Shown here piece after piece: positions 36,820 to 62,403 of a stretch of DNA of 64,000 nt. A model generated the notes under the pieces. The model saw only the letters and a list, made by a program, of their open reading frames with translations, was not told where the DNA came from and did no database searches. Both the position numbers and the translations under genes were made by a program. How positions within the stretch are numbered: position 1 is the first letter of the stretch; every line of letters begins with the position of its first letter. Origin of the DNA: Phytoactinopolyspora mesophila (GTDB taxonomy: Bacteria > Actinomycetota > Actinomycetes > Jiangellales > Jiangellaceae); the NCBI RefSeq assembly GCF_010122465.1, contig NZ_WLZY01000005.1, positions 124,001 through 188,000 on the forward strand, read 5' to 3'.

Positions 36820-38108
36820 TGGACACCGTGGCCACCAAAGCACCGATGACGCACAACATGGGCTTGCTCCGGTTCGCTACCGCCGGATCGGTGGACGACG
36901 GCAAGTCGACACTGATCGGCAGGCTGCTCTACGACTCCAAGTCGATCTTCACCGACCAGCTGGAGAGCGTCGAGCGCACCAGCCAGGAACGCGGCGACGA
37001 ATACACGAACCTGGCGCTGCTCACCGACGGCTTGCGGGCCGAACGGGAGCAGGGCATCACCATCGACGTCGCCTACCGGTACTTCGCGACACCACGGCGG
37101 AAGTTCATCATCGCCGACACCCCGGGGCACATCCAGTACACCCGCAACATGGTGACCGGGGCGTCCACAGCTGATCTCGCGATCGTCCTGGTGGACGCCC
37201 GCAAGGGGCTCGTCGAGCAGAGCCGTCGGCACGCGTTCATCGTGTCGCTGCTTCGAGTGCCGCACCTGGTGCTCGCGGTCAACAAGATGGATCTGGTGGA
37301 TTGGTCGGAGGAGGTCTTCGAAGAGATATCCCACGAATTCGCCGCTTTCGCTTCGAAGCTCGCGATCCCCGACCTCACGGCGATTCCCATCTCAGCCCTT
37401 CACGGCGACAACATCGTCAGCCGTTCGGAGAACACACCGTGGTACGAGGGTTCGTCCCTGCTGCATCATCTCGAGCACGTGCACATCGCCAGCGACCGTA
37501 ACTTGGTGGACGTTCGCTTCCCTGTTCAGTACGTCATCCGTCCGCAGTCACTACAGCATGCCGACTATCGCGGGTACGCGGGGCAGATCGCCGGCGGCGT
37601 GCTGAAGAAGGGTGACGAGGTCATGGTCTTGCCAAGCGGCCTGACATCGCGGATCGCCGCCATCGAAACCGCCGATGGCCCGGTGGCCGAGGCGTTCGCT
37701 CCGATGTCGGTGACCGTGAGACTGGAAGATGAGCTCGACGTCTCCCGGGGCGACATGATCTGCCGCCCGCACAACCGGCCCGCAGTGGCTCAGGACATCG
37801 ACGCGATGATCTGCTGGATGGCCGACACCCCACTGGTCCCCGGCCAGAAGCTGGCTATCAAACACACCACCCGATCCGCGCGGGCGCTGGTGAAAGAGAT
37901 GCAGTACAAGCTGGACGTGAACAGCTTGCACCGGGACGAATCCGCCACGCAGCTCGACCTCAACGACGTCGGCAGAGTGCGCCTGCGGACCACCGCGCCG
38001 TTGCTCGCCGACGAATACCGGCGCAATCGGATCACCGGCGGGTTCATCCTGGTGGACGAATCCACCAACCGGACCGTCGGCGCCGGGATGATCACCGCCG
38101 CCAGCTGA
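36819..38108 (+). CDS. cysN: Sulfate adenylyltransferase subunit 1 (GTPase)
   Basis: CysN is an EF-Tu-like GTPase that drives APS formation by CysD. G motifs: TAGSVDDGKSTLIGRL, DTPGHIQYTRNMVTGAS and NKMDLVDW. Length 429, with no fused APS kinase domain; the separate APS kinase gene lies at 62493-63785. TGATG overlap with cysD. No APS/PAPS reductase (cysH) or sulfite reductase is present in the window. Confidence 0.96.
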   Translation: MDTVATKAPMTHNMGLLRFATAGSVDDGKSTLIGRLLYDSKSIFTDQLESVERTSQERGDEYTNLALLTDGLRAEREQGITIDVAYRYFATPRRKFIIADTPGHIQYTRNMVTGASTADLAIVLVDARKGLVEQSRRHAFIVSLLRVPHLVLAVNKMDLVDWSEEVFEEISHEFAAFASKLAIPDLTAIPISALHGDNIVSRSENTPWYEGSSLLHHLEHVHIASDRNLVDVRFPVQYVIRPQSLQHADYRGYAGQIAGGVLKKGDEVMVLPSGLTSRIAAIETADGPVAEAFAPMSVTVRLEDELDVSRGDMICRPHNRPAVAQDIDAMICWMADTPLVPGQKLAIKHTTRSARALVKEMQYKLDVNSLHRDESATQLDLNDVGRVRLRTTAPLLADEYRRNRITGGFILVDESTNRTVGAGMITAAS

Positions 38109-43629: not shown

Positions 43630-45135
43630 ATGACGACGGGCGATCAACATGATCTTCACGCAAGTCACCAGCATCTTCACGGTGTGGACGTCGAGTACGA
43701 GACGAAGGGCACCGAGTATTTCGAGCGCCGGAAGCTCCGCCGAGGAGCAGCGGGCTGGGTGCTGCTCGCCGGTCTCGGCGTCTCCTATGTGATCTCCGGG
43801 GACTTCGCGGGGTGGAACTTCGGCCTGGCCGAGGGCGGCTGGGGCGGCCTGTTGATCGCCACCGTCCTCATGGCCCTCATGTACACGTGTATGGTCTTCG
43901 GGCTCGCCGAGATGAGTGCGTCGATGCCGGTTGCCGGCGCTGGCTACGGTTTCGCCCGTCGGGCCCTGGGGCCGCTGGGTGGGTTCGCCACCGGCACCGC
44001 GATCCTGATCGAGTACGCCATCGCGCCGGCGGCGATCGCGGTGTTCATCGGTGGCTATGTGGAAGCCCTTGGTCTGTTTGGTCTCACCAGCGGCTGGCCG
44101 GTGTTCCTCGCCGCCTACGCGGTCTTCGTCGGCATCCATCTCTGGGGTGTCGGCGAAGCGCTGCGCCTGATGTTCGTCATCACCGGGCTCGCGATGGTGG
44201 CACTCGTCGTTTTCGTCATCGGTATGGCCGGCCAGTTCGATGTCGACAACCTGTTCGACATCCCGATGACCGACTCGTTCGGCGCCAGCTCCTTCTTGCC
44301 CTTCGGCATCATGGGCGTCTGGGGCGCTCTCGTCTTCGCAATCTGGTTCTTCCTCGCGATCGAGGGGGTTCCGCTTGCCGCGGAGGAGGCACGCAATCCG
44401 AAGCAGGACATGCCGAGAGGCATCATCGTCGGCATGACCATTCTGCTGGTCACCGCGGCGATGATACTGGTGATGGCGCCGGGCGGCGCCGGAGCGCAGG
44501 CGCTCATGGACTCCGACAATCCGCTGCCGGAGGCGGTACGGCAGGCGTACGGCGGGAACAACTTCCTCGCCGACTTCGTCAATTACGTCGGCCTCGCCGG
44601 ACTGATCGCCAGCTTCTTCTCCATCATCTACGCGTACTCGCGTCAGCTCTTCGCGTTGTCCCGGGCTGGGTACCTGCCGCGCTGGCTGTCTGTTACTAGT
44701 CGTCGTCGCACCCCGTACCTCGCGCTGATCATTCCTGGCACGGTGGGGTTCGCCCTGGCCTCGATCACCCAGGCCGGCGACCTGATGATTCAGATCGCGG
44801 TGTTCGGTGCCGCGGCATCCTACGTGCTGATGATGGTGGCGCACATCGTGCTGCGCAGGCGGGAGCCGGAGATGGAGCGGCCTTACCGGACGCCCGGCGG
44901 GACCGTGACCACCAGCGTCGCGCTGGTCCTTGCCGCCACCGCGTTGATCGCGGTGTTTCTGGTGGACCTCACGGCCGCGGCCATCGTGGCGGGGATCTTC
45001 GTCGCCGCCCTGGCCTACTTCTGGTTCTACTCCCGCCACCGCCTGGTGGCCAACGCTCCGGAGGAGGAGTTCGAAGCGATCCAGCGAGCCGAGGCGGAGC
45101 TGGCCGGTGGCGCACACACGCTCGATGTGGAGTGA
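43630..45135 (+). CDS. Amino-acid/amine permease, ethanolamine permease type
   Basis: An APC-superfamily transporter with 12 hydrophobic segments. The stretches RRGAAGWVLLAGLGVSYVIS, GDFAGWNFGLAEGGWGGLLI, GYGFARRALGPLGGFATGTA and IEGVPLAAEEARNPKQDMPR are close to the ethanolamine permease subfamily. Length 501. The His-rich start (DQHDLHASHQHLHGVD) is unusual and might bind metal. It diverges from the gamma-glutamyl ligase operon and probably imports its substrate. ATG 43630 after GGGAGCTCCG. Confidence 0.9.
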   Translation: MTTGDQHDLHASHQHLHGVDVEYETKGTEYFERRKLRRGAAGWVLLAGLGVSYVISGDFAGWNFGLAEGGWGGLLIATVLMALMYTCMVFGLAEMSASMPVAGAGYGFARRALGPLGGFATGTAILIEYAIAPAAIAVFIGGYVEALGLFGLTSGWPVFLAAYAVFVGIHLWGVGEALRLMFVITGLAMVALVVFVIGMAGQFDVDNLFDIPMTDSFGASSFLPFGIMGVWGALVFAIWFFLAIEGVPLAAEEARNPKQDMPRGIIVGMTILLVTAAMILVMAPGGAGAQALMDSDNPLPEAVRQAYGGNNFLADFVNYVGLAGLIASFFSIIYAYSRQLFALSRAGYLPRWLSVTSRRRTPYLALIIPGTVGFALASITQAGDLMIQIAVFGAAASYVLMMVAHIVLRRREPEMERPYRTPGGTVTTSVALVLAATALIAVFLVDLTAAAIVAGIFVAALAYFWFYSRHRLVANAPEEEFEAIQRAEAELAGGAHTLDVE

Positions 45136-46114: not shown

Positions 46115-46990
46115 GTGTTTCGGCGTTCGAACTCCCGAGCCATACTCGCCCTGCAGGGCGGGCTGGGCAACCAGCTGTTCCAGTGGGCATTCGCCACGTC
46201 CCTGCGACGGCAGGGAATCCGGCTTCGGCTGGACACGGTGCGCTGCCGTGGATCCCGGCCGATGGCGCTCGGCTCGCTGGCGGAGGGTATTCGGCGCATT
46301 CCGCGGCCGGCCGGCCTGGCCTTGGTTGCCGCACAACGGGCCGGCGCCTTGCGTGGCGGGGTCATTCCGAGGCTGGTCGAAGAAGAGCGATTCGGCTACG
46401 ACAAGTCCCTGCGTCCTCGAGTGCTCGAGGGAGGAATGGGCGGGAGCTACTTGTATGGCTATTTTCAGTCGTACAAGTACTTCGAGGACATCGCCGACGA
46501 CGTGAGACGGCAGGTAACCGACTTTCTCGCTGGCCACCTCACGCCGGCTGGGCGGGACCTTCAGGGCGAACTGGCCGACGACCCGTCCAGTGTGGCGTTG
46601 CATGTTCGCCGGGGTGACTACGTCAGCAATCCGGTGGCCGCCGCCCATCACGGCGTGCTCGGGACGCATTACTACCAACAGGCCCTGGACACGGTGGCCA
46701 AGTGGGGGCACACTCGTCGAATCTGGTTCAGCGACGACTTGCCGTGGGTCCGGCAACATCTCGCGGCTCCGGATGATGAGGTTTGTCCTGCCGGCGTCAC
46801 CCGTGATGCCGCAGGTGAGATCGCTCTGATGGCGGCATGCTCGGCACGTGTCATTGCGAACAGCTCATTCAGCTGGTGGGCAGGGTGGCTAGGGCGCAAT
46901 GACTCAGGGGTGGTGGCGCCGGCACAGTGGTTCGCCGACGCGGACACGTCGGCGGACGACCTGGTGCCGGCTACATGGACGAGGCACTAG
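46115..46990 (+). CDS. GT11 family alpha-1,2-fucosyltransferase-like glycosyltransferase
   Basis: It should transfer L-fucose from GDP-fucose to a galactoside. GT11 marks: ALQGGLGNQLFQWAFATSL at the N-terminus, the donor-binding HVRRGDYVSN (about 168-177) and the end motif ANSSFSWWAGWLG (about 248-260). Length 291, as usual for bacterial GT11 proteins, and cytosolic. The GTG start (46115) has a poor ribosome site. gmd and GDP-fucose synthase in the same locus supply its donor. Confidence 0.9.
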   Translation: MFRRSNSRAILALQGGLGNQLFQWAFATSLRRQGIRLRLDTVRCRGSRPMALGSLAEGIRRIPRPAGLALVAAQRAGALRGGVIPRLVEEERFGYDKSLRPRVLEGGMGGSYLYGYFQSYKYFEDIADDVRRQVTDFLAGHLTPAGRDLQGELADDPSSVALHVRRGDYVSNPVAAAHHGVLGTHYYQQALDTVAKWGHTRRIWFSDDLPWVRQHLAAPDDEVCPAGVTRDAAGEIALMAACSARVIANSSFSWWAGWLGRNDSGVVAPAQWFADADTSADDLVPATWTRH

Positions 46991-47087: not shown

Positions 47088-47891
47088 GTGGATGACGACG
47101 TGACAATCGACGACGGCGAGCCGGACAACAGCTCGGGCAGCGGGCAGCCGTGGTGGCGACGTCCGCGAGGCCTTGCGGCACTGGGTATCGGTGTGGCAGC
47201 GGTCATTGTCGCCGGGGTGATGCTGGCGACGTCGGGATCTTCGGACGAAGACCCGCGCTCGGCTGAGCGGCCGCCGGCGCAGCAGACCGGAACTCCGACG
47301 CCGGACGACGATCAGACGCCGGTTCCGGAGCCGACTCCGAACGACGGGTCGCCCGATCCGGAGACGACAACGGAACCGACCGCCGCGCCGGACGATGACG
47401 ATGATGACGTCGCCGATGACGACGCCACGTCGGAGCCGACATCGCCTCCGGCGGACGGTGAGATCGATCCTGACGAGGCTGTCCGCGAGGCCGAGCGGGT
47501 GCTCGCCGAGTTCCTTGCCGAAAGTGATGCGGCGTATCAGGACCCGGGGGCGGATCTGAGTGCGCTGGCTGAGATTGCCGGCGGCGTCGCCTACAGCGAG
47601 GTCCAGGCCGGTGTCACCGAATTGGAGAGCGTCGAATGGCGGCAGAGCGGCACCGTTGACATCGTCGAGTTCCGTCCGGGCGATGTGGACGTCTCGGCAT
47701 CGCCGGCGTCGGTCGAGTTATCCGCTTGTCTGGACACGGCGGATATCGATCTGGTCGACAAGTCCGGCGACTCCGTCCGAGGGCCAGTCGACGACGGGCC
47801 CAGTCGTACGCTGCATCAATACCGCGTCGAGCACGTGGACGGGCAGTGGATGGTGGTCGATCACACCTTCCCGGATGATGCGGATTGCTAA
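47088..47891 (+). CDS. Membrane-anchored protein with acidic Pro/Thr linker (unknown function)
   Basis: Not recognised. A short acidic cytosolic start is followed by basic WWRRPRG, one membrane helix (about 29-49, LAALGIGVAAVIVAGVMLA), then a ~75-residue low-complexity linker rich in Pro, Thr, Asp and Glu (PDDDDDDVADDDATSEPTSP), and a ~115-residue outer domain with a helix (EAVREAERVLAEFLAESDAAY) and beta-rich end. The layout fits a protein that spans the wall with its C-terminal domain outside, ending in Cys. GTG 47088. It lies between the fucosyltransferase and the fibrinogen-domain protein. Confidence 0.8.
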   Translation: MDDDVTIDDGEPDNSSGSGQPWWRRPRGLAALGIGVAAVIVAGVMLATSGSSDEDPRSAERPPAQQTGTPTPDDDQTPVPEPTPNDGSPDPETTTEPTAAPDDDDDDVADDDATSEPTSPPADGEIDPDEAVREAERVLAEFLAESDAAYQDPGADLSALAEIAGGVAYSEVQAGVTELESVEWRQSGTVDIVEFRPGDVDVSASPASVELSACLDTADIDLVDKSGDSVRGPVDDGPSRTLHQYRVEHVDGQWMVVDHTFPDDADC

Positions 47892-48067: not shown

Positions 48068-51000
48068 ATGGGAATCCGCCGGCGACGGCGGGTGTTCGCG
48101 GGTGCTACCCGCGTGCTCGCTGTATCTACGTTAGTCACGTCAACGCTCGTCATGGCGTCCGGCGCATCGGCCGCGGCCGAGCCACCGGATGGGCAGAGTC
48201 AGTTCACTGCCGCCGCGTCCTGCTGGGAGATCAAGCAGAACACGCCGTCCGCGCAAGACGGTGTGTACTGGCTGGTCACGCCCACGCTGAAAGCGCCAGA
48301 ACAGTTTTACTGCGACATGACCACCGATGGCGGCGGCTGGGTGCTCATCGGCCGTGGCCGTGAGGGTTGGCGCAATACCTACGAAGGGCTCGGCACAACA
48401 GCGCAGGTGCGCTCCGTCGTGAACGGGCCGGACGCGTTCCAGCCGCGGCAGCTGTCGTCGCAGGTCATCGACGGTCTACTGGATGGCCGACGAGTCGACC
48501 AGGTGCCCGACGGCATCCGGCTGCGCCGGGCGATGAACACCGGTGGCACGCAATGGCAAGAGGCTCGGTTCAACTTCGCCAACCGCGATCGCTGGGTGTG
48601 GACGTTCCCGGCTGAACACCGTGTGGGTTCCTTCCGGTTCGGTACCACAACCGGCTCCGGGGGCCAGACCAGTAGCTTCGGCACCAACCAGCAGTTCAAC
48701 AGGGTCATCACCACCAAGACCCAGGCGCAAGGCTGGACGGCCGGCTGGGCTTTCGGCAGCCTGGTCTCCGGATCCACCTCGCCGACGAGCTATCTGTGGT
48801 CCAACTCCATCGGCACCGGCCAGGCGCGTCCCTTCACCCAGGTGTTCCTGCGGCCACGGTTGAAGCTCGAAGACCTTGACTTCCCGGACGTTCCTGACGC
48901 CGGGAGCCCGGCCGAAGAACTGCCGGGCATCATCGAAAACGGTGTGCTGCCGCAGCCTTGGGGCGTGGCAGGGCGTGCCAATGGCAGCACTAGCGAGCTG
49001 GCCACCGAGGTACAGGACTTCGTCCAGATCGGTGACTACGTGTACGTCGCCGGCAACTTCCGGTGGGTGCAGCGCAATGCCGCCGGGGCCGGCCGGGTCG
49101 AGCAGTCCTACCTCGCCGCGTTCCACGTGGATACCGGCGAGTGGATCTCCGGATTCCGGCCCACCTTCAACAACCAGGTCAAGGCGCTCGCCGTGCTACC
49201 GGATGGTCGGCTGATCGCCGGGGGCGAATTCAGCCAAGTCAACGGCAGCACAGCCCGGGGAATGGTGGCGCTCAATCCCACTACCGGGGCTACGGACAGC
49301 TCATGGCATGTCGATATGGAGAACCGGCTGACCAGCGGCTTTTTGAGCGTACGCAGTCTGTCGGTCAAGGGTGATTGGTTGTACGCCGGTGGCGCGTTCA
49401 CGCACATGTCCGGTGGCAGCGTCTCCAGCCCCATCTACGCCCGATCGGGCGCCCGGTTCTCGGTGGCCAACGGAACTCCGGACGCCAACTGGAACCCGAA
49501 TTTCGACGGCACGGCGGTCGATATCGACGCCAGCGACGACGGGTCCCGGCTGTACGCGGCCGGCTACTTCGGACATTCCAACGGCGAGCCCGCACTTCGC
49601 GCCGCGGCTGTGCGGACCGTGGCGGGTGCCCCGCTGGCTACACCTGCGTGGACACCGACCTGGAGCAGGCCCGCGGACCGGACCAACTACCAGCAGGCGA
49701 TCAGAGAGTCCGGCGACCGGGTGTGGGTCGGCGGCGCCGAGCATTCGGTGTTCAGCTTCAGCACCGCGACGTTCGACCGGCTGTCCGGGAACATCACCAA
49801 GGCGGGTGGCGACTTCCAGGCGATGGCTGTTGTCGACGGTGTTGTCTATGCCGGCTGCCATTGTGACGACTGGAACTACTCCAACGCCTTCTTCTGGCCC
49901 GGCGTCGGCACGGACTGGACGCAGGCCGACAAGATCGGCTGGGTCTCGGCTTGGGATTCGGAGAGTGGCGACGTCATTCCCGACTTCAATCCGATCATGC
50001 GTACGGATCGTGGGCACGGGGCGTGGGGAATCTTCGGCGACAGCAACGGCACGGTGTGGATCGGCGGCGACTTCATCTCCGGCCTCAACGCCAGCGGTGG
50101 CAATCAATGGGTGGGTGGATTTGCACGCTTCGCGCAACGGGACACCACTGCGCCCTCGGCACCGAGCAATCTCGGCGGCCAGCGCATCGACAACGACACC
50201 GTCCGGCTGAGCTGGCAGGCGTCGTCGTCGAGTAACGTGGAATACGAGCTCATGCGCGGTGGCCAGGTCATATTCGTGACACCTGACACGACGCTGGAGG
50301 TGCCGTCAGCGGCCGGCGACGACGACCGGTTCTTCGTCCGCGCAGTGGACAGCACCGGCAACCGCTCGGCGAGCACAACCGTGCTCGACCTCAGCGATCC
50401 ACTGCCGCCGGAGCCAGGCGTGCTGGTGGAATACGGTTCGGACTGGTCGTGGCGCTATGAGACGGCAGCGGTCAACGCGAACTGGGCACAGCCTGGTTTC
50501 AACGCCTCGTCGTGGAACGAAGGCCCGGCCATCCTCGGGTTCGGCTCGACAGCCGTGGAGACGAACATCGATGTGCCATCGGGGCAGACCCGGCCGCTGG
50601 CGGCGTACTTCCGGCACGAGTTCGACGTGGACGACGCCGACGCCATCAGTAGTTTCGACCTGGAGACCTGGGCCGACGATGGCGTGGTCGTATACGTCAA
50701 CGGTGAAGAAGCCGGCCGGTGGAACATGCCTTCCGGCACCATCACCGGGGGGACGTACGCCACCGCCGCACCGCGGACGAACACCGCCAGGGCCAACCCG
50801 GTCACCGTGACGATCCCGGGCGATGTGCTGGAGGACGGCACGAACGTCGTGGCCGCCGAGGTTCACCTGAACTATCGCAGCACACCCGACGTCAGCTTCG
50901 ACCTGTCTCTCACCGAAAACGAGTCCGAGGTGCCGCCACCTACGGCACCGGCCGCCACGGCGACGGTCCAGGGTGAGAACCAGGTGCTCCTGGAGTGGGA

Positions 51001-51730
51001 GGACCCCGACGACGAGGCAGTTGTCAAACACCGGATCATCCGGGACGGAGCCACGGACGTCGACGTCGACATGCCGGAGCTCTCCTACCTGGTCGAAGGG
51101 CTGCAACCGGACACGGAGTACAGCTGGGAAATCGTCGCGGTCGACGGTTTCGGGCGGACGTCCGAGCCGGCCGTTGTCAGCGCTCGTACGGACGAGGGCG
51201 AACCGCCACCTCCAGAGCCGGTCGTGCTCGTCGAGAAGGGGGCGGATTGGTCCTGGCGGTACGAGTCGGCCGCGGTCGATGCCGAGTGGGCACAGCCTGG
51301 TTTCAACGCGTCGTCGTGGAACGAGGGGCCGGCGGTTCTGGGCTGGGGGTCGGCTTCGATAGAGACGAACATCGATGTGCCGTCGGGTGAGACGCGGCCG
51401 CTGGCGGCGTACTTCCGGCACGAGTTCGATGTCGATGATCCAGAAGCGCTGGACGAGCTGGAAATGCTGACCCGGGCCGACGACGGCGTCGTCGTCTATG
51501 TCAACGGCGAGGAGATCGGCCGGTGGAATATGCCGTCCGGCACCATCACCGGGGGGACCTACGCCACGGCGGCGCCGAGAACTAATACGGCGGTCAACAA
51601 CCCGGTGACGGTGACATTGCCGGCGGACGTGCTGGTCGAAGGGACGAACGTGGTCGCGGCCGAGGTTCATCTGAACTATCGGAGCACTCCGGACATCAGC
51701 TTCGACCTCGGCCTCGGCACCGCGCAGTGA
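48068..51730 (+). CDS. Secreted multidomain protein: fibrinogen-like domain, propeller-like region, FN3 and twin C-terminal repeats
   Basis: A 1220-residue exported protein of unknown role. Signal peptide: basic MGIRRRRRVFAGATRVL, hydrophobic core, cleavage near ASAAAEPP (~37). Residues ~50-265 are fibrinogen-C-like (SCWEIKQ, FYCDMTTDGGGWVLIGRGRE). Residues ~290-690 have repeated YVAGNF, LIAGGEFSQVNG, LYAGGAFTHMSG and IGGDFISG blades, like a beta-propeller. An FN3 domain (~694-775), a ~165-residue repeat (~780-949, SWRYETAAV..WAQPGFNASSWNEG), a second FN3 (~956-1045) and a second copy of the repeat (~1053-1220) follow. The copies are near-identical in DNA too. No LPXTG or C-terminal helix, so it is released or held non-covalently. 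Confidence 0.88.
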   Translation: MGIRRRRRVFAGATRVLAVSTLVTSTLVMASGASAAAEPPDGQSQFTAAASCWEIKQNTPSAQDGVYWLVTPTLKAPEQFYCDMTTDGGGWVLIGRGREGWRNTYEGLGTTAQVRSVVNGPDAFQPRQLSSQVIDGLLDGRRVDQVPDGIRLRRAMNTGGTQWQEARFNFANRDRWVWTFPAEHRVGSFRFGTTTGSGGQTSSFGTNQQFNRVITTKTQAQGWTAGWAFGSLVSGSTSPTSYLWSNSIGTGQARPFTQVFLRPRLKLEDLDFPDVPDAGSPAEELPGIIENGVLPQPWGVAGRANGSTSELATEVQDFVQIGDYVYVAGNFRWVQRNAAGAGRVEQSYLAAFHVDTGEWISGFRPTFNNQVKALAVLPDGRLIAGGEFSQVNGSTARGMVALNPTTGATDSSWHVDMENRLTSGFLSVRSLSVKGDWLYAGGAFTHMSGGSVSSPIYARSGARFSVANGTPDANWNPNFDGTAVDIDASDDGSRLYAAGYFGHSNGEPALRAAAVRTVAGAPLATPAWTPTWSRPADRTNYQQAIRESGDRVWVGGAEHSVFSFSTATFDRLSGNITKAGGDFQAMAVVDGVVYAGCHCDDWNYSNAFFWPGVGTDWTQADKIGWVSAWDSESGDVIPDFNPIMRTDRGHGAWGIFGDSNGTVWIGGDFISGLNASGGNQWVGGFARFAQRDTTAPSAPSNLGGQRIDNDTVRLSWQASSSSNVEYELMRGGQVIFVTPDTTLEVPSAAGDDDRFFVRAVDSTGNRSASTTVLDLSDPLPPEPGVLVEYGSDWSWRYETAAVNANWAQPGFNASSWNEGPAILGFGSTAVETNIDVPSGQTRPLAAYFRHEFDVDDADAISSFDLETWADDGVVVYVNGEEAGRWNMPSGTITGGTYATAAPRTNTARANPVTVTIPGDVLEDGTNVVAAEVHLNYRSTPDVSFDLSLTENESEVPPPTAPAATATVQGENQVLLEWEDPDDEAVVKHRIIRDGATDVDVDMPELSYLVEGLQPDTEYSWEIVAVDGFGRTSEPAVVSARTDEGEPPPPEPVVLVEKGADWSWRYESAAVDAEWAQPGFNASSWNEGPAVLGWGSASIETNIDVPSGETRPLAAYFRHEFDVDDPEALDELEMLTRADDGVVVYVNGEEIGRWNMPSGTITGGTYATAAPRTNTAVNNPVTVTLPADVLVEGTNVVAAEVHLNYRSTPDISFDLGLGTAQ

Positions 51731-52527
51731 CGGCGCAGGACCATGCCGACCCACCCGCGCCGGCGCACCGCCGGCGTGGGCGGTTCGGCGCTGCGCTCAA
51801 CGAACTGAGCGGAGCCCAGAAGAGTCAGGCCGGAGTCCCGCTGTACACCCGGTACGTGAACCGCCGCTTAGGTCGCTACGCCGCGGCCTGGGCATACACG
51901 GTGAGGCTCACCCCGAACCAGGTGACCGGCCTCAGCGCACTGTGTTCGGCGGCGGCCCTCGCGCTGGTGGTGACAGTCAGCCCGGCGCTCTGGCTGGCCC
52001 TGACCGCGACCGTCTTGCTGGTCATCGGCTACGCGCTGGACTCTGCCGACGGTCAGCTGGCCCGGCTGACCGGGTCGGGTGGGCCGGCCGGTGAATGGCT
52101 CGACCACGTCGTGGACGCGGCCCGGAACCCGGCGTTGCACCTAGCGCTGCTGATCTCCCTCTACCGGTTCGCCGACCTGCCGGATTGGGTCCTGCTGTTG
52201 CCGATGCTCTTCCTGCTGACCACCATGGTCCGGTTCTTCGGTCAGATGCTGGCTGAGCAACTTCGTCGGCGGGAGCCGATGCCGTCACCAGCGGATGCGC
52301 AGACGGACCAGAAGGGCCGCTCGATCATTCAGCTTCCGTCCGATCCAGGTGTGATCAACCTGGTCTTCGTCTTCCTGGCCTGGCCGTGGGTGTTCGTCTG
52401 GGTGTATGCGGGCCTGCTGGGAGCCAACATGCTGCTTGCGCTCGCCTCACTGGTGCGGCGCTTCCGCGAGATGCGGCACCTGCAGGCAGCACTGCACGAC
52501 GCAACAATCACAAGGGGGGTCTCGTGA
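51727..52527 (+). CDS. CDP-alcohol phosphatidyltransferase family protein
   Basis: These membrane enzymes move a phospho-alcohol from a CDP-activated donor onto an alcohol acceptor. The full catalytic motif D-x2-DG-x2-AR-x8-G-x3-D-x3-D is present in DSADGQLARLTGSGGPAGEW then LDHVVD (about 99-124), with about six membrane helices. Length 266. The GTG start overlaps the stop of the secreted protein (GTGA), and the next gene is a cytidylyltransferase, so substrate and enzyme are probably made together. Acceptor unknown: a lipid, or the polymer itself. Confidence 0.88.
   Translation: MTAQDHADPPAPAHRRRGRFGAALNELSGAQKSQAGVPLYTRYVNRRLGRYAAAWAYTVRLTPNQVTGLSALCSAAALALVVTVSPALWLALTATVLLVIGYALDSADGQLARLTGSGGPAGEWLDHVVDAARNPALHLALLISLYRFADLPDWVLLLPMLFLLTTMVRFFGQMLAEQLRRREPMPSPADAQTDQKGRSIIQLPSDPGVINLVFVFLAWPWVFVWVYAGLLGANMLLALASLVRRFREMRHLQAALHDATITRGVS
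52514..52519 (+). promoter_or_regulatory. G6 leader run
   Basis: ACAAGGGGGGTCTCGTG: six G, 4 bases before the start at 52524, inside the end of the preceding gene. Confidence 0.55.
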
Positions 52528-52967
52528 CCAACGAGGCAGCGACGAAACGGGTCGGATATGTACCCGGCGTGTTCGACATGTTCCACATCGGCCATCTCAA
52601 CATCCTCCGGCAGGCGAGCACGTACTGCGACCACCTGGTAGCCGGGGTGGTGACGGACGAGGTCGTCGAGGAGGTCAAGAATCACAGCCCGGTGGTGCCA
52701 TTCGACGAGCGGATGCAGATCGTCGGCAGCATTCAGTACGTCCATGAGGTAGTGCCGGACACGTCCCCGGACAAGACCGTCGCGTGGCGGACACGCCCCT
52801 TCGACGTGATCTTCAAAGGTGACGACTGGCGGGGCACCCAGAAGGGCACGCGGCTGGAGCAGGCCATGAGCGAGCTCGGCGTGGAAGTCGTCTATTTTCC
52901 GTACACGATCCGCACCTCCAGTACGTTGCTGCGGACCTACCTTGCTACCGCGGTCGGCGGCGCCTGA
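52524..52967 (+). CDS. TagD-like cytidylyltransferase (glycerol-3-phosphate type)
   Basis: A small nucleotidyltransferase, 147 residues. The CTP-binding GVFDMFHIGHLNILRQA (HxGH, about 15-31), the KGDDWRG loop and the YTIRTSSTLLR end (ISSTxIR-type motif) are those of glycerol-3-phosphate/ethanolamine-phosphate cytidylyltransferases. It probably makes CDP-glycerol or another CDP-alcohol for the upstream transferase. GTG 52524 overlaps the previous stop (GTGA). Confidence 0.88.
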   Translation: MTNEAATKRVGYVPGVFDMFHIGHLNILRQASTYCDHLVAGVVTDEVVEEVKNHSPVVPFDERMQIVGSIQYVHEVVPDTSPDKTVAWRTRPFDVIFKGDDWRGTQKGTRLEQAMSELGVEVVYFPYTIRTSSTLLRTYLATAVGGA

Positions 52968-53899
52968 TGAGCCGCCTGGAACCGGCCGATCAACCGGCCG
53001 TCACCGTGGTGATCGCTACCCGCGACCGGCCGGAACTGTTGCGCCGAGCCGTTTCGGCCGTGCTCGAGCAGGACTACGCCGGGCCTGTGCAGTGCATCGT
53101 TGTCTTCGATCGCAGCGAACCGCACCCGGTGGACGTGCCGGTCGCGGACAACCGCAAACTCGAACTCATCCGCAACAGCCGCACGCCCGGGCTGGCAGGT
53201 GGGCGGAACTCCGGTATCCGGGCAGCCTCAGGTGAGCTGGTCGCGTTCTGCGATGACGACGACGAGTGGCTGGTCCACAAGTTGCGCCGCCAGGTTCAGC
53301 TGTGGGCGGAGGAACCCGAGGCCAGCTGCGTGGCCACCGGGATCGTGATCGCCAACGAGGACGGGGAACACGAACGGACGGCGCCGGAGCGCACGACGTT
53401 CCGTGATCTGCTGCGTTCCCGGGTCACGGCTATCCACCCCTCTTCACTGTTGTTCCGCAGGACCGACCTGGACGGCGGCCGGATCGGCCTGGTAGACGAG
53501 GCATTGCCGGGATCCTACGGCGAGGACTACGAGCTGCTGCTACGGGCGTCCAGGCTGGGAGACGTCGTGGCCGTGCCGGAGCCGTTGGTGAAGATCGACT
53601 GGGCCCGTCCGTCGTACTTCGCCGGGAAATGGGATGTGATCAGTGAAGGGCTTGCCTACATCCTGGACCAGGTGCCGGAGTTCGCGGGTGAGCGGCGTGG
53701 GCTTGCCCGCATAGAGGGGCAGATCGCCTTCGCCCACGCGGCACGGGCGCGTCGTCGTCCGGCGTTACGCTGGGCCGGACGCGCACTCGCGCACGACCCG
53801 AGCCAGTTGCGGGCCTACGGTGCCGTCGCTGTAGCCGCCGGTGTGATCCAAGCGCAGTGGCTGCTGGACAAGGTCCAGGAGCGCGGACGAGGACTGTAG
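52967..53899 (+). CDS. Family 2 glycosyltransferase
   Basis: GT-A fold: VTVVIATRDRPELLRRAVSA at the start, GLAGGRNSGIRAASG and the metal-binding acidic run FCDDDDEWLVHKL (about 100-112), then GEDYELLLRASRLG as the catalytic-base region. Length 310, cytosolic. ATG overlaps the previous stop. It adds one sugar to the lipid-linked repeat unit; donor and linkage unknown. Confidence 0.9.
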   Translation: MSRLEPADQPAVTVVIATRDRPELLRRAVSAVLEQDYAGPVQCIVVFDRSEPHPVDVPVADNRKLELIRNSRTPGLAGGRNSGIRAASGELVAFCDDDDEWLVHKLRRQVQLWAEEPEASCVATGIVIANEDGEHERTAPERTTFRDLLRSRVTAIHPSSLLFRRTDLDGGRIGLVDEALPGSYGEDYELLLRASRLGDVVAVPEPLVKIDWARPSYFAGKWDVISEGLAYILDQVPEFAGERRGLARIEGQIAFAHAARARRRPALRWAGRALAHDPSQLRAYGAVAVAAGVIQAQWLLDKVQERGRGL

Positions 53900-55231
53900 A
53901 TGTCCACCGCATTTGTGTTGCCGAGGCGTCCGAGATCATCCGGCTCGGCAAGAGTGGCGCGCCCCTCCAGGCTGCCATGGGTGGCACCGAGTGACGGTAG
54001 CCGGCCGTTGCCGGCGTGGCCGGTCGACGTGCTGCTCTGGGGATTCCCGGTCTTCTGGCTACTCGGGCTCTCGCCGTTCGCGCCGATCGGGCTGGCGATG
54101 ATCATGGCCGGCTTCATGATCGTGCGGCGAGGCGAGACGATCGTGCCCGGGATGCTGCCGTGGTTCGCCTTCGTGCTCTGGATCGTGCCGGCTGCACAGA
54201 TGCTGGACTCGCCGCTGCGCCTGCTCGGTTATGGGCTGCGCTTCGCCAATCTGGCCGCGATCGCCGTGGTGCTGCTTTACGTCGTGAGCGCTCGGGAACA
54301 GTTGAGTATCCGGCGGGTGCTCGCCGGGCTGACCGTCGTGTGGCTGACCGTCGTGGTGGGTGGCTATCTCGGGACGTTATGGCCGGACGTGCGGCTGAGC
54401 ACGCCGGCCGGTTTGTTGCTTCCGGGGGCGCTTGCGGGTAACGAGTATGTCCAGGATCTGGTCTTCCCACCGTTCGCTGAGGTGCAGCGGCCATGGGGGG
54501 CGCCGGAGCCGTTTGTCCGCCCGGCTGCGCCCTTCCCCTATGCGAACAGCTGGGGGACAGCGGTGGTGTTGCTCACTCCGTTGGCTATCGCGGGACTGCG
54601 CTTCTTCCGCTCAAAAGGTGCCCGCCGACTGATCGTCGTGGGACTCGCGGCTCTTGTGCCTCCGGCCTTGGCATCGTCGAACCGGGGAATGTTCATCGGG
54701 CTCGGTATCGCGGTGGGTTATGTCGTCCTCCGTCTCGCCGGACGGGGCCAGGTCAAGACACTGCTTGCGGTCGTCAGCACCGGCGGCCTCGTCGTCGGCG
54801 TGTTCGTGTATGCGGGGCTGCTCGATTCGATCGCCACGCGGCAGGAATACAGCGACACCACCAGCGGGCGGGCGTCGCTGTATGAAGAGACGTTTACCCG
54901 GACCTTGGAGTCACCGTTGCTGGGCTGGGGCGCGCCACGTCCATCGCTTGTGCACGGGATCTCGGTGGGGACCCAGGGGCACGTCTGGATGGTGATGTTC
55001 TCCTACGGATTCGTCGGACTGGCCTTGTTCCTGCTTTTCCTCTGGGGGGCGACGCTTCGGACCTGGTTCTCTGCCTGTGACACCGGTCGGCTCTGGATGC
55101 ACAGCTGCCTGGTGACAGCATCGGTTTTGATCTTCTTCTACGGACTGGACACGATGCAGATGCTGGCTGTTGTGCTAGTGGCCGGCCTTCTCCTCAGGGA
55201 ACGTTACGGTGCGGATGAGGTCCGAACGTGA
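53900..55231 (+). CDS. O-antigen polymerase / ligase-like membrane protein (Wzy-like)
   Basis: A 443-residue protein with ten or more hydrophobic segments and a large outer loop (about 165-205, PDVRLSTPAGLLLPG..). Arg/Gly-rich outer loops with GWGAPRPS and GTQGHVWMVMFSYGFVGLAL near the end match Wzy/O-antigen-ligase (PF04932-type) proteins. It probably joins repeat units outside the membrane. ATG follows the GT2 stop directly and the next start overlaps its stop, so it is deep inside an operon. Confidence 0.85.
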   Translation: MSTAFVLPRRPRSSGSARVARPSRLPWVAPSDGSRPLPAWPVDVLLWGFPVFWLLGLSPFAPIGLAMIMAGFMIVRRGETIVPGMLPWFAFVLWIVPAAQMLDSPLRLLGYGLRFANLAAIAVVLLYVVSAREQLSIRRVLAGLTVVWLTVVVGGYLGTLWPDVRLSTPAGLLLPGALAGNEYVQDLVFPPFAEVQRPWGAPEPFVRPAAPFPYANSWGTAVVLLTPLAIAGLRFFRSKGARRLIVVGLAALVPPALASSNRGMFIGLGIAVGYVVLRLAGRGQVKTLLAVVSTGGLVVGVFVYAGLLDSIATRQEYSDTTSGRASLYEETFTRTLESPLLGWGAPRPSLVHGISVGTQGHVWMVMFSYGFVGLALFLLFLWGATLRTWFSACDTGRLWMHSCLVTASVLIFFYGLDTMQMLAVVLVAGLLLRERYGADEVRT

Positions 55232-56754
55232 GCCGCGGCGGATTGGCCCGGGCAGGCCTGATCAGCTTGGTGGGCGCCGTCACCGGCGCGGGTGTCAACT
55301 TCGGTATCGGGATCATCGTCGGGCGCGGGCTTGGTACCGACGGTACGGGGACGTTCTTCCAGGTCATCGCGGTCTTCATCATTCTCGCCAATGTCCTGGA
55401 GCTGGGTGCGGATACGGGCCTGGTCCGGTTCTGTTCCGGGTCGGTAGCGACCGGTCGCAACGGAGAACTGCGCCCGCTGGTCCGCACCGCGATCGTTCCT
55501 GTGGTCTGTGTCGGCGCCGTGCTGACGGCCGCCGCATGGATGCTGACACCACAGCTGGCCGGCTTCTTGTCGGCATCGCCGGACGTGCCAACGGAGCAGA
55601 TTGTCCGGATGCTGGTGCCGTTTGTCGTGCTCGCCTCCTTGCTGGCGGTTGTGCTGGGAGCCACTCGGGGCCTCGGTAGCGTCGCCACCTTCACCGTGCT
55701 GCAGAACGTCGCGTTGCCGGTTGGGCGTTTCGTGTTGATCGGGATAGCGCTGCTGGCCGGCGCCGGGCTCGTCGACGTGCTGAAGGCGTGGATCGTGCCG
55801 CTGCCGATCGTCGCCGTCATCGCGGTAGCAATCCTGGCGCGTCAGCTGGCGCGCCGCACTCGAGGTCGTCTTGAAGGTGTACCAGAGAACCACGAGGCAA
55901 CTCGTGTTCTGCGGCGGCGGTTCTGGGGGTTCAGTAGCGCCAGGGGTGTGTCAGCCGCCGTGGAGATCCTCCTCGAATGGGTTGATGTTCTCATCGTGGC
56001 CGCATTCCTGTCGCCCGCCGAAGCCGGGATCTATGCCGTGGTCAGCCGCAGTGTCCGGGCCGGACAGGTGGTCCAGCAGGCGGCACGGGTGGCCGTGGCG
56101 CCGATGGTCAGTGCTGCACTGGCTCGCAACGATGTGGCCGAGGCGCGCCGGCTGTTCGTCGTCGTCACCCGGGCCATGGTGCTGATGTCCTGGCCGTTCT
56201 ATCTGATGCTGGCCTGTTTCGCTCCAGGCATACTGTCGATCTTCGGACCAGGTTTCGCTCAAGGCTCGAACGCGTTGACGATCATGAGTCTCACCATGGC
56301 ACTGGCGGCCGCGGCCGGGATGGTGCAGACCGTGCTGTTGATGGGTGGGAAAAGCAGTTGGCAGCTCGCCGACAAGTCGGCGGCGCTCGGAGTGAACGTC
56401 GGCCTCAACGTGGTACTGGTTCCGGTTTGGGGCGTCGTCGGCGCCGCCGTTGCCTGGGCGGTCACCGTGGCCGTCGACACATCGCTCGCCGCGTGGCAAG
56501 TACACAAGGGCATGGGTGTCCACGTGTCACCGGCGAGCTTGGCCTTGCCGGCGGCGTTGCCGTTATTGGTGTTCGGCGCGGGCGGTCTTGCGCTGCGCGC
56601 GATGGTGGGCGACGGCCTATCGGGCGTGGTCATCATGCTCCTTGCCGGGGGAGTTGTCTACGTCTGCCTGTGCTGGATGTTCAGGCGCCGGCTTGGAATC
56701 GACACGATCGTGTCGTCGTTGCGTCGGCGTCGTTTGAGCGTGCCGGCGTCGTGA
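55228..56754 (+). CDS. Oligosaccharide flippase (Wzx-like, MOP superfamily)
   Basis: 508 residues with 12-14 helices and the polysaccharide-transporter pattern: GLISLVGAVTGAGVNFGIGI at the start, FFQVIAVFIILANVLELGAD, then a central RRFWGFSSARGVSAAVEILL and WVDVLIVAAFLSPAEAGIYA. It should flip the lipid-linked repeat unit to the outer face for the Wzy-like protein. The GTG start overlaps the previous stop (GTGA). Confidence 0.88.
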   Translation: MSRGGLARAGLISLVGAVTGAGVNFGIGIIVGRGLGTDGTGTFFQVIAVFIILANVLELGADTGLVRFCSGSVATGRNGELRPLVRTAIVPVVCVGAVLTAAAWMLTPQLAGFLSASPDVPTEQIVRMLVPFVVLASLLAVVLGATRGLGSVATFTVLQNVALPVGRFVLIGIALLAGAGLVDVLKAWIVPLPIVAVIAVAILARQLARRTRGRLEGVPENHEATRVLRRRFWGFSSARGVSAAVEILLEWVDVLIVAAFLSPAEAGIYAVVSRSVRAGQVVQQAARVAVAPMVSAALARNDVAEARRLFVVVTRAMVLMSWPFYLMLACFAPGILSIFGPGFAQGSNALTIMSLTMALAAAAGMVQTVLLMGGKSSWQLADKSAALGVNVGLNVVLVPVWGVVGAAVAWAVTVAVDTSLAAWQVHKGMGVHVSPASLALPAALPLLVFGAGGLALRAMVGDGLSGVVIMLLAGGVVYVCLCWMFRRRLGIDTIVSSLRRRRLSVPAS

Positions 56755-57837: not shown

Positions 57838-58851
57838 TCAGCGGTCGACACGTACCGTGCGGCCGTTCAGCTCGTCGTCCAGGGCGGATATGTCTGCCTC
57901 CGTCATGATCCGGGCGAGTTCGTCGAACATGACTGTCGGCTTCCAGCCCAGCACCTGCTCGGCCTTCGACGGGTCGCCGATCAACGCGTCCACCTCGGCC
58001 GGGCGCTCGTAGCGAGCGTCGTAGGCGACATACTCGCGCCAGTCGAGACCCACGGCCGAGAACGCCGCTTCGCAGAATTCGCGCACCGTGTGGGCCTCGC
58101 CGGTGGCCACCACGTAGTCGTCGGGCTCGTCTTGCTGGAGCATCCTCCACATCGCGTCGACGTACTCCGGTGCGTAGCCCCAGTCGCGGACCGCGTCCAG
58201 ATTGCCCAAGTAGAGCTTTTCCTGCAGGCCGGCCTTGATCCGGGCCACGGCACGGGTGATCTTGCGGGTGACGAACGTCTCGCCACGACGAGGGCTCTCA
58301 TGGTTGAACAGGACCCCGTTGACGGCGTACATGCCGTACGCCTCGCGGTAGTTCACTGTCGTCCAGTAGCCGAAGACCTTGGCGCAGCCGTAAGGGCTGC
58401 GGGGGTGAAAACGGGTCTGCTCGTTCTGCGGCGGCGGTGCGGAGCCGAACATCTCCGACGACGACGCCTGGTAGATCCGGGTCGCCACGCCACTGGCCCG
58501 GACGGCTTCGAGCAGTCGCAGTGGTCCGGTGCCGGTGATATCGGCGGTGTACAACGGCGCGTCGAACGACACCCGGACGTGCGACTGCGCACCGAGGTTG
58601 TAGATCTCATCCGGCTGGATGTCACGGAGCAAATTGACCAGCGCGACACCGTCGGACAGATCCGCATGGTGCAGAGTAAGCCGCCGGTCCGGATCGTGTG
58701 GTTCCTCGTATATGTGATCGATGCGGTCGGTATTGAAACTGGACGATCTGCGGATCAAACCGTGGACCTGGTAGCCCTTTTCCAGCAGCAATTCGGCTAG
58801 ATATGAGCCGTCCTGCCCGGTGATACCAGTGATGACAGCATTCTTCGCCAT
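57838..58851 (-). CDS. gmd: GDP-mannose 4,6-dehydratase
   Basis: Gmd makes GDP-4-keto-6-deoxymannose, the first step to GDP-L-fucose. NADP loop [43 protein letters not shown] with [14 protein letters not shown] giving the Ser/Tyr/Lys set; [20 protein letters not shown]. Length 337. The start ATG 58851 (MAKNAVITG) is preferred over the ORF start at 58962. It diverges from the next enzyme of the pathway. A G6 run lies 8 bases before the start. Confidence 0.96.
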
Positions 58852-58960
58852 CGCGCAAGCCCCCCTGCTCAGGCGACGCAAGCCCCCTTGCGCCCATTGT
58901 GGGTACTTTATGTCTTTCAGCTGCATACGTAAAGCCGAAGTCGTGCGACAATGAGGCGCC
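58852..58960. promoter_or_regulatory. Divergent gmd/fcl promoter gap with palindromic G-run
   Basis: On the gmd strand, CGCAAG-GGGG-CTTGCG (58877-58892) is a perfect 6-bp hairpin with a G4 loop. It is followed by AGCAGGGGGGCTTGCG, so GGGGGCTTGCG occurs twice in tandem before the gmd start. The C6 at 58860-58865 is the gmd G6 run. TACTTTATGTCTTTC near 58905-58919 is A/T-rich and probably holds the promoters. Confidence 0.6.
58860..58865 (-). promoter_or_regulatory. G6 leader run of gmd
   Basis: On the minus strand AGCAGGGGGGCTTGCGCGATG. The AGCAGGGGGGCTT part is identical to that before the Wzz-like gene (62310-62315). Confidence 0.65.
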
Positions 58961-59932
<972 letters not shown>

Positions 59933-60901: not shown

Positions 60902-62299
60902 TCAGCGCCCGGGGCGGATGGTTGCCGGCCAGCCGGTGGAACGTTCTGCTGCGTCGCCGGGTACGGGGCGCCGGGCGTGCATGCCGTCGCTGCCCGCTTT
61001 CGGCCCGGAGAATTCACGAGCTGACGTACGACGTTCGGCGGGAAGCAGGATTCCGAGGTCGATCTCCCGCTCGGCGACGGCGAGCTGACCGACGAACTCT
61101 TGGACGGGTTTCCTCCGGCTGCGCTTCGTGGCCGCGACCATGATCGCGTGGCAGCGCCGGGCCAGCGCGATCCGGCGCGTCCGGCTGGTGATCATGGTGA
61201 GGTCGAGGACGACGAGGTCGTCGCTCGCCCAATCCGACAGCACATCGGCGGAACCGGGCCAGCCGGCGTCGACGGCTGACATGTCCATCCGATCGGAATC
61301 GATCAAACGGGCCCGCATCCGGTGGCTATGTGCGACTTCGACCAGGCAGGTGGCAGCTTCGTAAACCTGGCCGTCGGCCGGGCCGGCCAACGCGACCAGT
61401 ACGGGCCCGTCGGTGCCGGACCGGGGATGCAAACGGGTCAGCTCCAGCAGTGCGTGCCGATACGGCTCATCGCGATCGGATTCGACCGTTCCGTCGATGA
61501 CCAAGCTGCCGCCGAGCAGATCTCGCAGCCGTGCCGCGTGTGTTATCCGCCGGTCGTGACGGTCGCGGAACAGGGCGAGCGCGATGCCCGCCAGTAAACC
61601 ACCCACCAGGCCCCCGATGAGCGTCACCGGCAGCCCGGGCGAAGACGGCGAACCGGGAGCGGTGGCCGACTCGATGATCCGGCCGGGATTGAGGGCCACG
61701 GTCACCAGGCTGCTCTGCTGCTGGCGTAATTCGATGATCTGCTGCTGGACGGCAACGGCGGTCAGCGACTCCGAGGCGTCGTCGTCCTGCTGCTCGATGA
61801 GCTCGTTGATGCGATCTTCGAGGGCGCTGATGAGGCGTTCCGCGAGCTCGTCGGCGCCCGCGACGCGAGAGTCGAGGTAGGCGGCGGCGAAGGCGTTGGC
61901 GCCCGCGGCGGCCCTGGCCCCGGTGTTGGCCGTGAAGGCGATCTGCAGGATCTGAGAGTCCGACGGCGAGGTCACCGACACCCGGGTGGTGAGCTCCCGC
62001 GGCGTGTACCTGGTGCTGCCGAGCAGTTCCGCGGCCGCCGTGGCCACTTCGGTGGAGCGCACGACCTGTTGCTCGGTATTCATATTGAGCTGCTGCGGAG
62101 CGGACGTGCCACCGAACGGGTTGGGTGTGATGGGGGAGACCGAGACGATGGCAGTGGCTGTGTACTCATCCGGCCAGAGGGAGCTCAGCCCGGCTGCGCC
62201 CATGAGGGCAACCAGAACTGAGGCGACGACTACCCGCCATCGCCGCCGGATGGTTTCGCCCACCTCTGTCAAACGCATAGGCGGTTGAGAAGGCGCCAT
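60902..62299 (-). CDS. Wzz-like chain-length determinant with degenerate BY-kinase-like domain
   Basis: 465 residues. Wzz domain at ~8-250: helix 1 (WRVVVASVLVALMGAAGLSS), a long outer coiled coil (~150-200), helix 2 (LPVTLIGGLVGGLLAGIALA). The cytosolic part (~265-430) follows the BY-kinase fold, but the Walker A position reads ALAGPADGQVYEA (~303-315) with no GK[ST]; the Walker A' aspartates survive in RLIDSDRMD and Walker B in DLVVLDLT. No tyrosine cluster at the C-terminus. It may steer polymer length without kinase activity. ATG 62299 is behind a G6 run; the ORF opens at 62362. Confidence 0.85.
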   Translation of the reverse strand: MAPSQPPMRLTEVGETIRRRWRVVVASVLVALMGAAGLSSLWPDEYTATAIVSVSPITPNPFGGTSAPQQLNMNTEQQVVRSTEVATAAAELLGSTRYTPRELTTRVSVTSPSDSQILQIAFTANTGARAAAGANAFAAAYLDSRVAGADELAERLISALEDRINELIEQQDDDASESLTAVAVQQQIIELRQQQSSLVTVALNPGRIIESATAPGSPSSPGLPVTLIGGLVGGLLAGIALALFRDRHDRRITHAARLRDLLGGSLVIDGTVESDRDEPYRHALLELTRLHPRSGTDGPVLVALAGPADGQVYEAATCLVEVAHSHRMRARLIDSDRMDMSAVDAGWPGSADVLSDWASDDLVVLDLTMITSRTRRIALARRCHAIMVAATKRSRRKPVQEFVGQLAVAEREIDLGILLPAERRTSAREFSGPKAGSDGMHARRPVPGDAAERSTGWPATIRPGR

Positions 62300-62309
62300 G
62301 AGCCCGAAG

Positions 62310-62315
62310 CCCCCC
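62310..62315 (-). promoter_or_regulatory. G6 leader run of the Wzz-like gene
   Basis: On the minus strand AGCAGGGGGGCTTCGGGCTCATG, 10 bases between run and start. Confidence 0.6.
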
Positions 62316-62403
62316 TGCTGAGTCAGAGCACCGTGTGTACCTAGGAGTCTAAATGGTCGCACATTTGTCGAGAAACGGTCAGTTCAGCGCCGGACCCACC
62401 TTC

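Follow-up and report, generated by a model that had tools for sequence, protein, structure and literature searches.

A fibrinogen-like and beta-propeller protein encoded at Wzx/Wzy-type polymer loci of Phytoactinopolyspora mesophila and other actinobacteria

The 64,000-nucleotide stretch of the Phytoactinopolyspora mesophila genome analysed here (contig NZ_WLZY01000005.1, positions 124,001 to 188,000; hereafter the window, in whose numbering positions are given) encodes a 1220-residue protein in which a fibrinogen-like domain (FReD) is followed by a beta-propeller, two FN3 domains and twin jelly-roll-like repeats, among genes for a polymer of the Wzx/Wzy type. We find that the association of this FReD-propeller protein with a Wzy-type polymerase is conserved across actinobacterial families and that the two proteins co-diverge beyond their genomic background. 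It may be a secreted modular matrix protein that grips the Wzx/Wzy-made surface polymer by its propeller and a second target by its remaining modules, a reading to which we give an even chance and in which we infer secretion, polymer binding and which domain binds what.

Conserved linkage and co-divergence with Wzy

FReDs were called with the NCBIfam model NF040941 in a sample of 296 genomes of the class, where 13 genomes from six families matched. A Wzy match occurs in 56 of the 296, namely in all 13 FReD genomes versus 43 of the 283 others (Fisher 1e-10, kinship ignored); the 12 best-scoring Wzy places all lie in FReD genomes, and the propeller is 1.4-8.1 kb from Wzy in all 13. From named genomes came 19 FReD-propeller loci, 17 of them actinobacterial, Agromyces humi and P. 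limicola being among the genomes. Adding the locus of the window and ten more from the class sample to the 17 (eleven were fetched, L058 being a duplicate of L030 counted once) gives 28 distinct loci, L028 and L053 having been missed by the motif pattern. A Wzy-type gene is present in the stretch examined at 25 of the 28, window included, the stretches of the eleven class loci having been cut after the positions of their Wzy genes were known. The glycan-locus setting that a first-pass annotation had proposed for the gene is thus conserved far beyond the genus. Homologues of the window Wzy account for 21 of the 27 other loci; a remoter Wzy_C protein is encoded nearby in three Ilumatobacteraceae/Ilumatobacter loci, and L028 is a 6-kb contig that carries a Wzx homologue. 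Two loci, L057 and L062 (genomes G046 and G129), each hold a pair of FReD motifs on one strand, separated by about 2.4 kb and each with a propeller match after it, in other words tandem copies.

Pairwise distances of the FReD-propeller region and of Wzy correlate at r 0.87, and after removal of the rpoB background the partial r is 0.78 (permutation p 0.0003, n=13). Corresponding partial values are 0.80 with Wzx (n=12) and 0.75 with the CDP-alcohol transferase (n=9); in this set two GT2 sequences are fragments of 61 and 131 residues. Taken separately, the FReD and the propeller reach partial r with Wzy of 0.71 and 0.73 at n=13, of 0.69 and 0.72 without genome G003, and of 0.80 and 0.60 with one genome per genus (n=9). 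Neither domain is thus singled out by co-divergence.

Within the genus an orthologue was found in one of four sampled congeners (G003, 87% identical), and neither FReD nor Wzy was matched in the remaining three; a plasmid search with a 251-residue query returned one short match, in Pseudomonas CP136011 (44% over residues 12-69). The accessory nature of the gene would suit an adhesin, a mere passenger of the polymer locus, that is directed at a host, a plant or another cell, and adhesive surface proteins commonly contain FReD and FN3 domains. The closely packed genes and the co-divergence with Wzy suggest more than co-travel, however, and we consider such an adhesin very unlikely.

Domain architecture and the fibrinogen-like fold

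The protein and its parts, all on the + strand, are as follows.

48068..51730, +: FReD-propeller protein, complete reading frame of 1220 codons (1220 residues)
48068..48175, +: signal-peptide-like N-terminus, residues 1-36 (judged by eye; hydropathy)
48185..48859, +: fibrinogen-like domain, residues 40-264 (NF040941; PF00147; AlphaFold2 model; fold matches)
48920..50146, +: beta-propeller, residues 285-693, DUF5122-like, probably seven blades (PF17164; model; Z ~30)
49742..49861, +: invariant polar propeller residues H559, D582, Q584 and H598 (GGDFQ...VYAGCH; alignment rows)
50147..50386, +: first FN3 domain, residues ~694-773 (phmmer to ChiA1 chain 1k85)
50387..50911, +: repeat 1, residues 774-948, like all-beta domains of beta-galactosidase (self-comparison; PF13364)
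50939..51190, +: second FN3 domain, residues ~958-1041 (PF00041)
51191..51715, +: repeat 2, residues 1042-1216, 80% identical to repeat 1 (self-comparison)

A full-length orthologue, 87% identical, is encoded in Phytoactinopolyspora limicola, and a chance or mistranslated reading frame was rejected on this basis and on the spread of NF040941 over six families. The 1220-residue frame, propeller-like region and two FN3 domains of the first-pass annotation were all recovered by profile scans, phmmer and modelling; its twin repeats stand as well, at a measured 175 rather than about 165 residues each. Given its signal-like N-terminal stretch the protein is probably secreted; mean hydropathy does not rise above 1.4 in any 19-residue window beyond that stretch, so that the protein is likely set free and retained without a covalent bond. 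The first FN3 domain (residues 695-773) matches ChiA1 chain 1k85 at E 4e-4, and residues 962-1036 of the second exceed the Pfam cut-off. The repeats share 140 of 175 residues; PF13364 is above its cut-off in the whole-protein scan and below it for either repeat alone, and their identification with a known enzyme domain was rejected, the matches to beta-galactosidase all-beta domains being weak. At another locus (L038:13951-16083) a sequence resembling the repeats (36-38%) adjoins the FReD gene, in a reading frame with a calcineurin-like phosphoesterase domain. A model of the full-length protein (pLDDT 82.7, pTM 0.64) is less sure than that of the FReD alone.

NF040941 matches residues 51-94 (E 9e-23; 80 bits, cut-off 30), and Pfam Fibrinogen_C (PF00147) covers residues ~62-103 only, at 20.6 bits in the whole protein, below its 22-bit cut-off, and at 23.4 bits, above it, when the domain is scanned alone; the N-terminal CDM...GGGW core is present with the first cysteine pair (C52, C82). 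An AlphaFold2 model of residues 40-290, built from 26 sequences, has a mean pLDDT of 92.6 and a pTM of 0.91, and the best 50 rows of both Foldseek (best E 9.5e-7) and VIA-align (Z up to 8.9 over 151 residues) are all FReDs. Because the VIA-align Z alone lies near the level of unmatched models (a best Z of 7-8 is, by its guidance, typical of models without a clear match), the case for the fold rests on the consistent match list together with the sequence motif. As modelled, residues 40-264 have the whole-domain FReD fold, and a short GGGW motif lacking that fold was rejected on the model and the consistent fold lists, despite modest TM-scores. The structure prediction hence upholds the fibrinogen-like domain of the first-pass annotation.

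In animal FReDs the calcium/ligand pocket and a second disulfide lie in the C-terminal half. Conservation across the 26 aligned FReDs stays below 90% for every acidic residue and cysteine of that half, and the window FReD has a single cysteine pair (52, 82) and no second disulfide pair, such that the earlier assignment to carbohydrate- or acetyl-binding lectins loses its footing and a canonical calcium/acetyl lectin of the ficolin type is not supported. The alignment comprises 26 of 28 unique FReD slices, with L047 and L056 omitted; also omitted from alignments were L040 and L041 of Bacteroidetes/Flavobacteriales, 412-residue reading frames that share the GGGW motif (61-63% identity across 46 residues). 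Vertebrate intelectins, too, have a motif close to the bacterial GGGW motif. Within the FReD, variability peaks in the 15-residue block 205-219, which its position places in the half of the fold that bears the ligand.

The propeller as the apparent constant part

The propeller has far stronger fold matches, the VIA-align rows listed having Z of about 29-30 with some 276-298 residues aligned, and PF17164 (DUF5122) reaches 32.1 bits (cut-off 27) when it is scanned alone and 24.4 bits in the whole protein. The best VIA-align rows include a 7-bladed designer protein and Foldseek also lists eight-bladed designs; judging by the best rows, the modelled propeller probably has seven blades. At E 1e-8 it matches in 60 of the 296 class genomes, and among FReD-less genomes in 30 of the 43 having Wzy versus 17 of the 240 without (kinship ignored), with propeller and Wzy at most 20 kb apart in 12 of those 30. 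Eight FReD-less propeller proteins were scanned for partner domains, seven from genomes with a Wzy match plus L129 (those at L123, L129 and L133 being truncated by the ends of their loci). PKD domains were found in three of the seven (L074, L123, L133), L074 additionally carrying Big_7 over the cut-off, and no named partner in the other four (L070, L071, L076, L124); the protein at L129, which bears LamG and comes from a genome without a Wzy match, was excluded from the polymer-link count. To judge from these sequences, the propeller seems to be the constant part and its partner modules exchangeable.

This distribution bears on the original proposal that the FReD itself is the polymer lectin and the propeller a mere scaffold. 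The FReD's divergence does track that of Wzy, more closely than the propeller's at one genome per genus, and its most variable stretch lies where a ligand would be expected by position; the propeller, however, tracks Wzy equally in the full set and is kept in most FReD-less Wzy genomes, and the FReD pocket residues are not conserved. We thus think it quite unlikely that the FReD is the polymer lectin and the propeller a scaffold. The earlier claim that the protein binds or organises the polymer gains from the conserved linkage and the co-divergence as far as its tie to the locus goes, without the FReD being favoured over the propeller as the binder, and the comparisons appear to point at the propeller for a polymer-facing role at least as much as at the FReD.

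All 22 rows of the FReD family share H559, D582 and Q584, and all 15 that extend far enough share H598, seven rows stopping before it. In 20 FReD-less propellers (L076 omitted, being from the same genome as L134) a strict GGD...GH pattern is present in 12, a looser one in 14 and the histidine in 18. All 12 strict cases are among the 16 from genomes with a Wzy match, and none is among the four from genomes without one (L120, L129, L130, L131); the pattern's background is 6 of 1384 reading frames, which may themselves include propellers. Because polar propeller residues are invariant, the main rival to a matrix protein is a polymer-processing enzyme, in which these His, Asp, Gln and His residues would cut, release or trim the Wzy polymer while the FReD, FN3 and jelly-roll-like modules hold the substrate. 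Polymer loci often encode such an enzyme, and the Asp-His pair is shared by over half of the FReD-less relatives. Yet no enzyme family is above its cut-off on the propeller in Pfam or NCBIfam scans, and the invariant residues may be structural or ligand-binding; we consider an enzyme unlikely, if less so than a lectin FReD or a travelling adhesin.

The polymer locus, the proposed function and known systems

Around the FReD-propeller gene the window holds the following.

46115..46990, +: GT11 glycosyltransferase
47088..47891, +: upstream protein with one hydrophobic segment, assigned to no family by Pfam or NCBIfam (homologous proteins at several FReD loci)
51727..52527, +: CDP-alcohol phosphotransferase, motif D..DG..AR(8)G...D...D intact (Pfam; motif check)
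52524..52967, +: cytidylyltransferase, its GTG at 52524 overlapping the preceding stop (Pfam, NCBIfam, solved-structure matches)
52967..53899, +: GT2 glycosyltransferase (Pfam)
53900..55231, +: Wzy-type polymerase (PF04932, 29.6 bits, just under the 31.7 cut-off)
55228..56754, +: Wzx-type flippase (Polysacc_synt/MatE; Pfam)
57838..58962, -: GDP-mannose 4,6-dehydratase (NCBIfam)
58961..59932, +: GDP-L-fucose synthase-like protein (NCBIfam, 480.5 bits against a 500-bit cut-off)
60902..62362, -: Wzz-type chain-length protein

From the FReD gene through the CDP-alcohol transferase, cytidylyltransferase, GT2, Wzy and Wzx genes, successive overlaps are 4, 4, 1, 0 and 4 bases, the first of them (GTGA) being the overlap with the transferase that had been noted before. 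With Wzx, Wzy, a chain-length protein and glycosyltransferases together, this is a Wzx/Wzy polymer locus, the Wzy lying 2 bits under its cut-off. The best solved match of the cytidylyltransferase is an ethanolamine-phosphate cytidylyltransferase (E 1.4e-19), followed by a chain deposited as phosphoenolpyruvate phosphomutase (1.3e-14) and a glycerol-3-phosphate cytidylyltransferase (8.9e-12), and the best NCBIfam model, far below its cut-off, is that of glycerol-3-phosphate cytidylyltransferase. These matches, split across ethanolamine- and glycerol-phosphate enzymes, do not single out the alcohol of the CDP-alcohol route. A CDP-alcohol transferase occurs within the stretch examined at 15 of the 28 FReD loci, window included, and at none of nine FReD-less Wzy loci (Fisher 0.005), these controls having been picked non-randomly from the better-scoring FReD-less Wzy places; a strict tie of FReD to transferase was rejected, 13 of the 28 lacking the latter in the stretch examined.

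Homologues of the upstream protein occur in the FReD loci L023, L024, L025, L026, L028, L029, L061 and L067 and in 7 of the 296 class genomes, 5 of these 7 having a FReD, with a weak second copy at G000:C5:229107-229862. Left of the locus lie CysD/CysN-type sulfate-activation genes (35911-38108), of which L023 has 91% identical copies, and a sulfotransferase is encoded near another FReD gene (L036:15444-16928); it is possible that the polymer is sulfated. At 43630-45132 the real gene is probably the one for an amino-acid permease on the + strand, rather than a 614-residue reading frame on the - strand that has no Pfam match.

In the mechanism that we propose, GT2, GT11 and GDP-fucose genes would, judging by their families, build lipid-linked units to which a CDP-alcohol-derived phospho-substituent is perhaps added, and which Wzx would flip and Wzy polymerise. 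The FReD-propeller protein would be exported and remain with the polymer non-covalently, its conserved propeller gripping the polymer and its FReD, FN3 domains and twin repeats gripping a second target, be it cell wall, surface, host or another chain, so as to cross-link or tether the polymer as RbmC and Bap1 do in Vibrio. Several points weigh against this proposal. The background of kinship, as measured by rpoB, was removed in the co-divergence tests only; two loci, L032 and L038, have no nearby Wzy among the 3 and 4 neighbouring reading frames, respectively, that were scanned with Pfam; and of the 30 FReD-less genomes that have a propeller as well as Wzy, 18 do not show the two on one contig at a distance of up to 20 kb. 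Foldseek TM-scores of the FReD model are mostly about 0.4-0.5 in the best 50 rows, with an rmsd of 6.5-10 over the whole alignment, and the invariant His, Asp, Gln and His residues could equally mark an enzyme. Finally, with eight blades in RbmC/Bap1 and no sequence match listed, the likeness to these proteins is at best one of working.

A bolder extension, decidedly unlikely in our judgement, would have an Actinomycetota class of polymer-locus propellers with a shared Asp-His site as an independent "double-sided tape", plus, in this branch, an intelectin-like FReD that reads the phospho-alcohol (phosphoglycerol or phosphoethanolamine) which the cytidylyltransferase and CDP-alcohol transferase encoded next door would attach to the polymer. 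The 13 FReD loci without a transferase in the stretch examined count against such a FReD; if it were true, a bacterial lectin for the cell's own polymer would be kin to the lectins of animal innate immunity.

The FReD-motif family and the idea of matrix adhesins are already known; apparently new, as not seen among the literature listed, are the FReD-propeller fusion, its conserved Wzy link and a propeller class with varying partners. By title and start of abstract, none of the literature matches listed, most subscription journals being outside coverage, concerns a bacterial FReD fused to a propeller or DUF5122 at polymer loci, and neither "fibrinogen" in PMC12419801 nor "DUF5122" in PMC9218822 was found in the available part of the text. 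To our knowledge, few studies have addressed the way in which Wzy-made polymers are held or organised in actinobacteria, and the protein offers a conserved candidate with separable modules for polymer holding, present also in P. limicola and Agromyces humi, as well as a bacterial setting for a fold usually studied in animals.

Among known systems, NF040941, a fibrinogen-like YCDxxxxGGGW family, already names the motif in the window, but its model spans 46 residues under a title without function, and the window protein goes beyond it with a complete FReD fold, fusion to a propeller and linkage to Wzy. PF17164 likewise places the propeller with the DUF5122/delta-60 propellers, a family whose title names no function. 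Ficolins, tenascins, FIBCD1 and tachylectin-5A match the fold across the whole domain (Foldseek E down to 9.5e-7, VIA-align Z ~8-9), yet at only 12-22% identity and with TM-scores as above, and the window domain has two cysteines only. By sequence the FReD profile comes closest, among solved proteins, to XEEL, intelectins and a serum lectin (E 7.4e-11 for XEEL to 6.6e-10), but the likeness to these X-type lectins is confined to the first ~50-64 N-terminal residues, the C-terminal half of the window family conserves neither an acidic residue nor a cysteine, and intelectins are absent from the best 50 rows of both Foldseek and VIA-align. Itln1 is described, in the part of the source at hand, as binding exocyclic vicinal diols through calcium coordination (PMC12800186).

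The nearest precedent in working is provided by RbmC and Bap1 of Vibrio cholerae, whose propeller, according to the accessible portion of PMC10102183, binds exopolysaccharide directly while other modules bind surfaces, as a "double-sided tape"; the same portion places rbmC between the two vps clusters and has RbmA of V. cholerae binding polymer through FnIII domains (PMC10102183), and a 2026 preprint mentions, in its available part, a crystal structure of a propeller-bound polymer unit (PMC13420445). Neither RbmC nor Bap1 is among the phmmer matches of the window protein at E 0.1 or among the propeller fold rows listed. They have eight blades with beta-prism and crystallin modules, in contrast to probably seven blades with FReD, FN3 and jelly-roll-like modules in the window protein. 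Overall, to the extent that this portion of the source describes them, they are secreted matrix proteins with a propeller and other binding modules (PMC10102183), a design that the protein encoded with the polymer genes here resembles, and the actinobacterial protein makes testable a question raised there, namely how general the propeller-plus-lectin design is.

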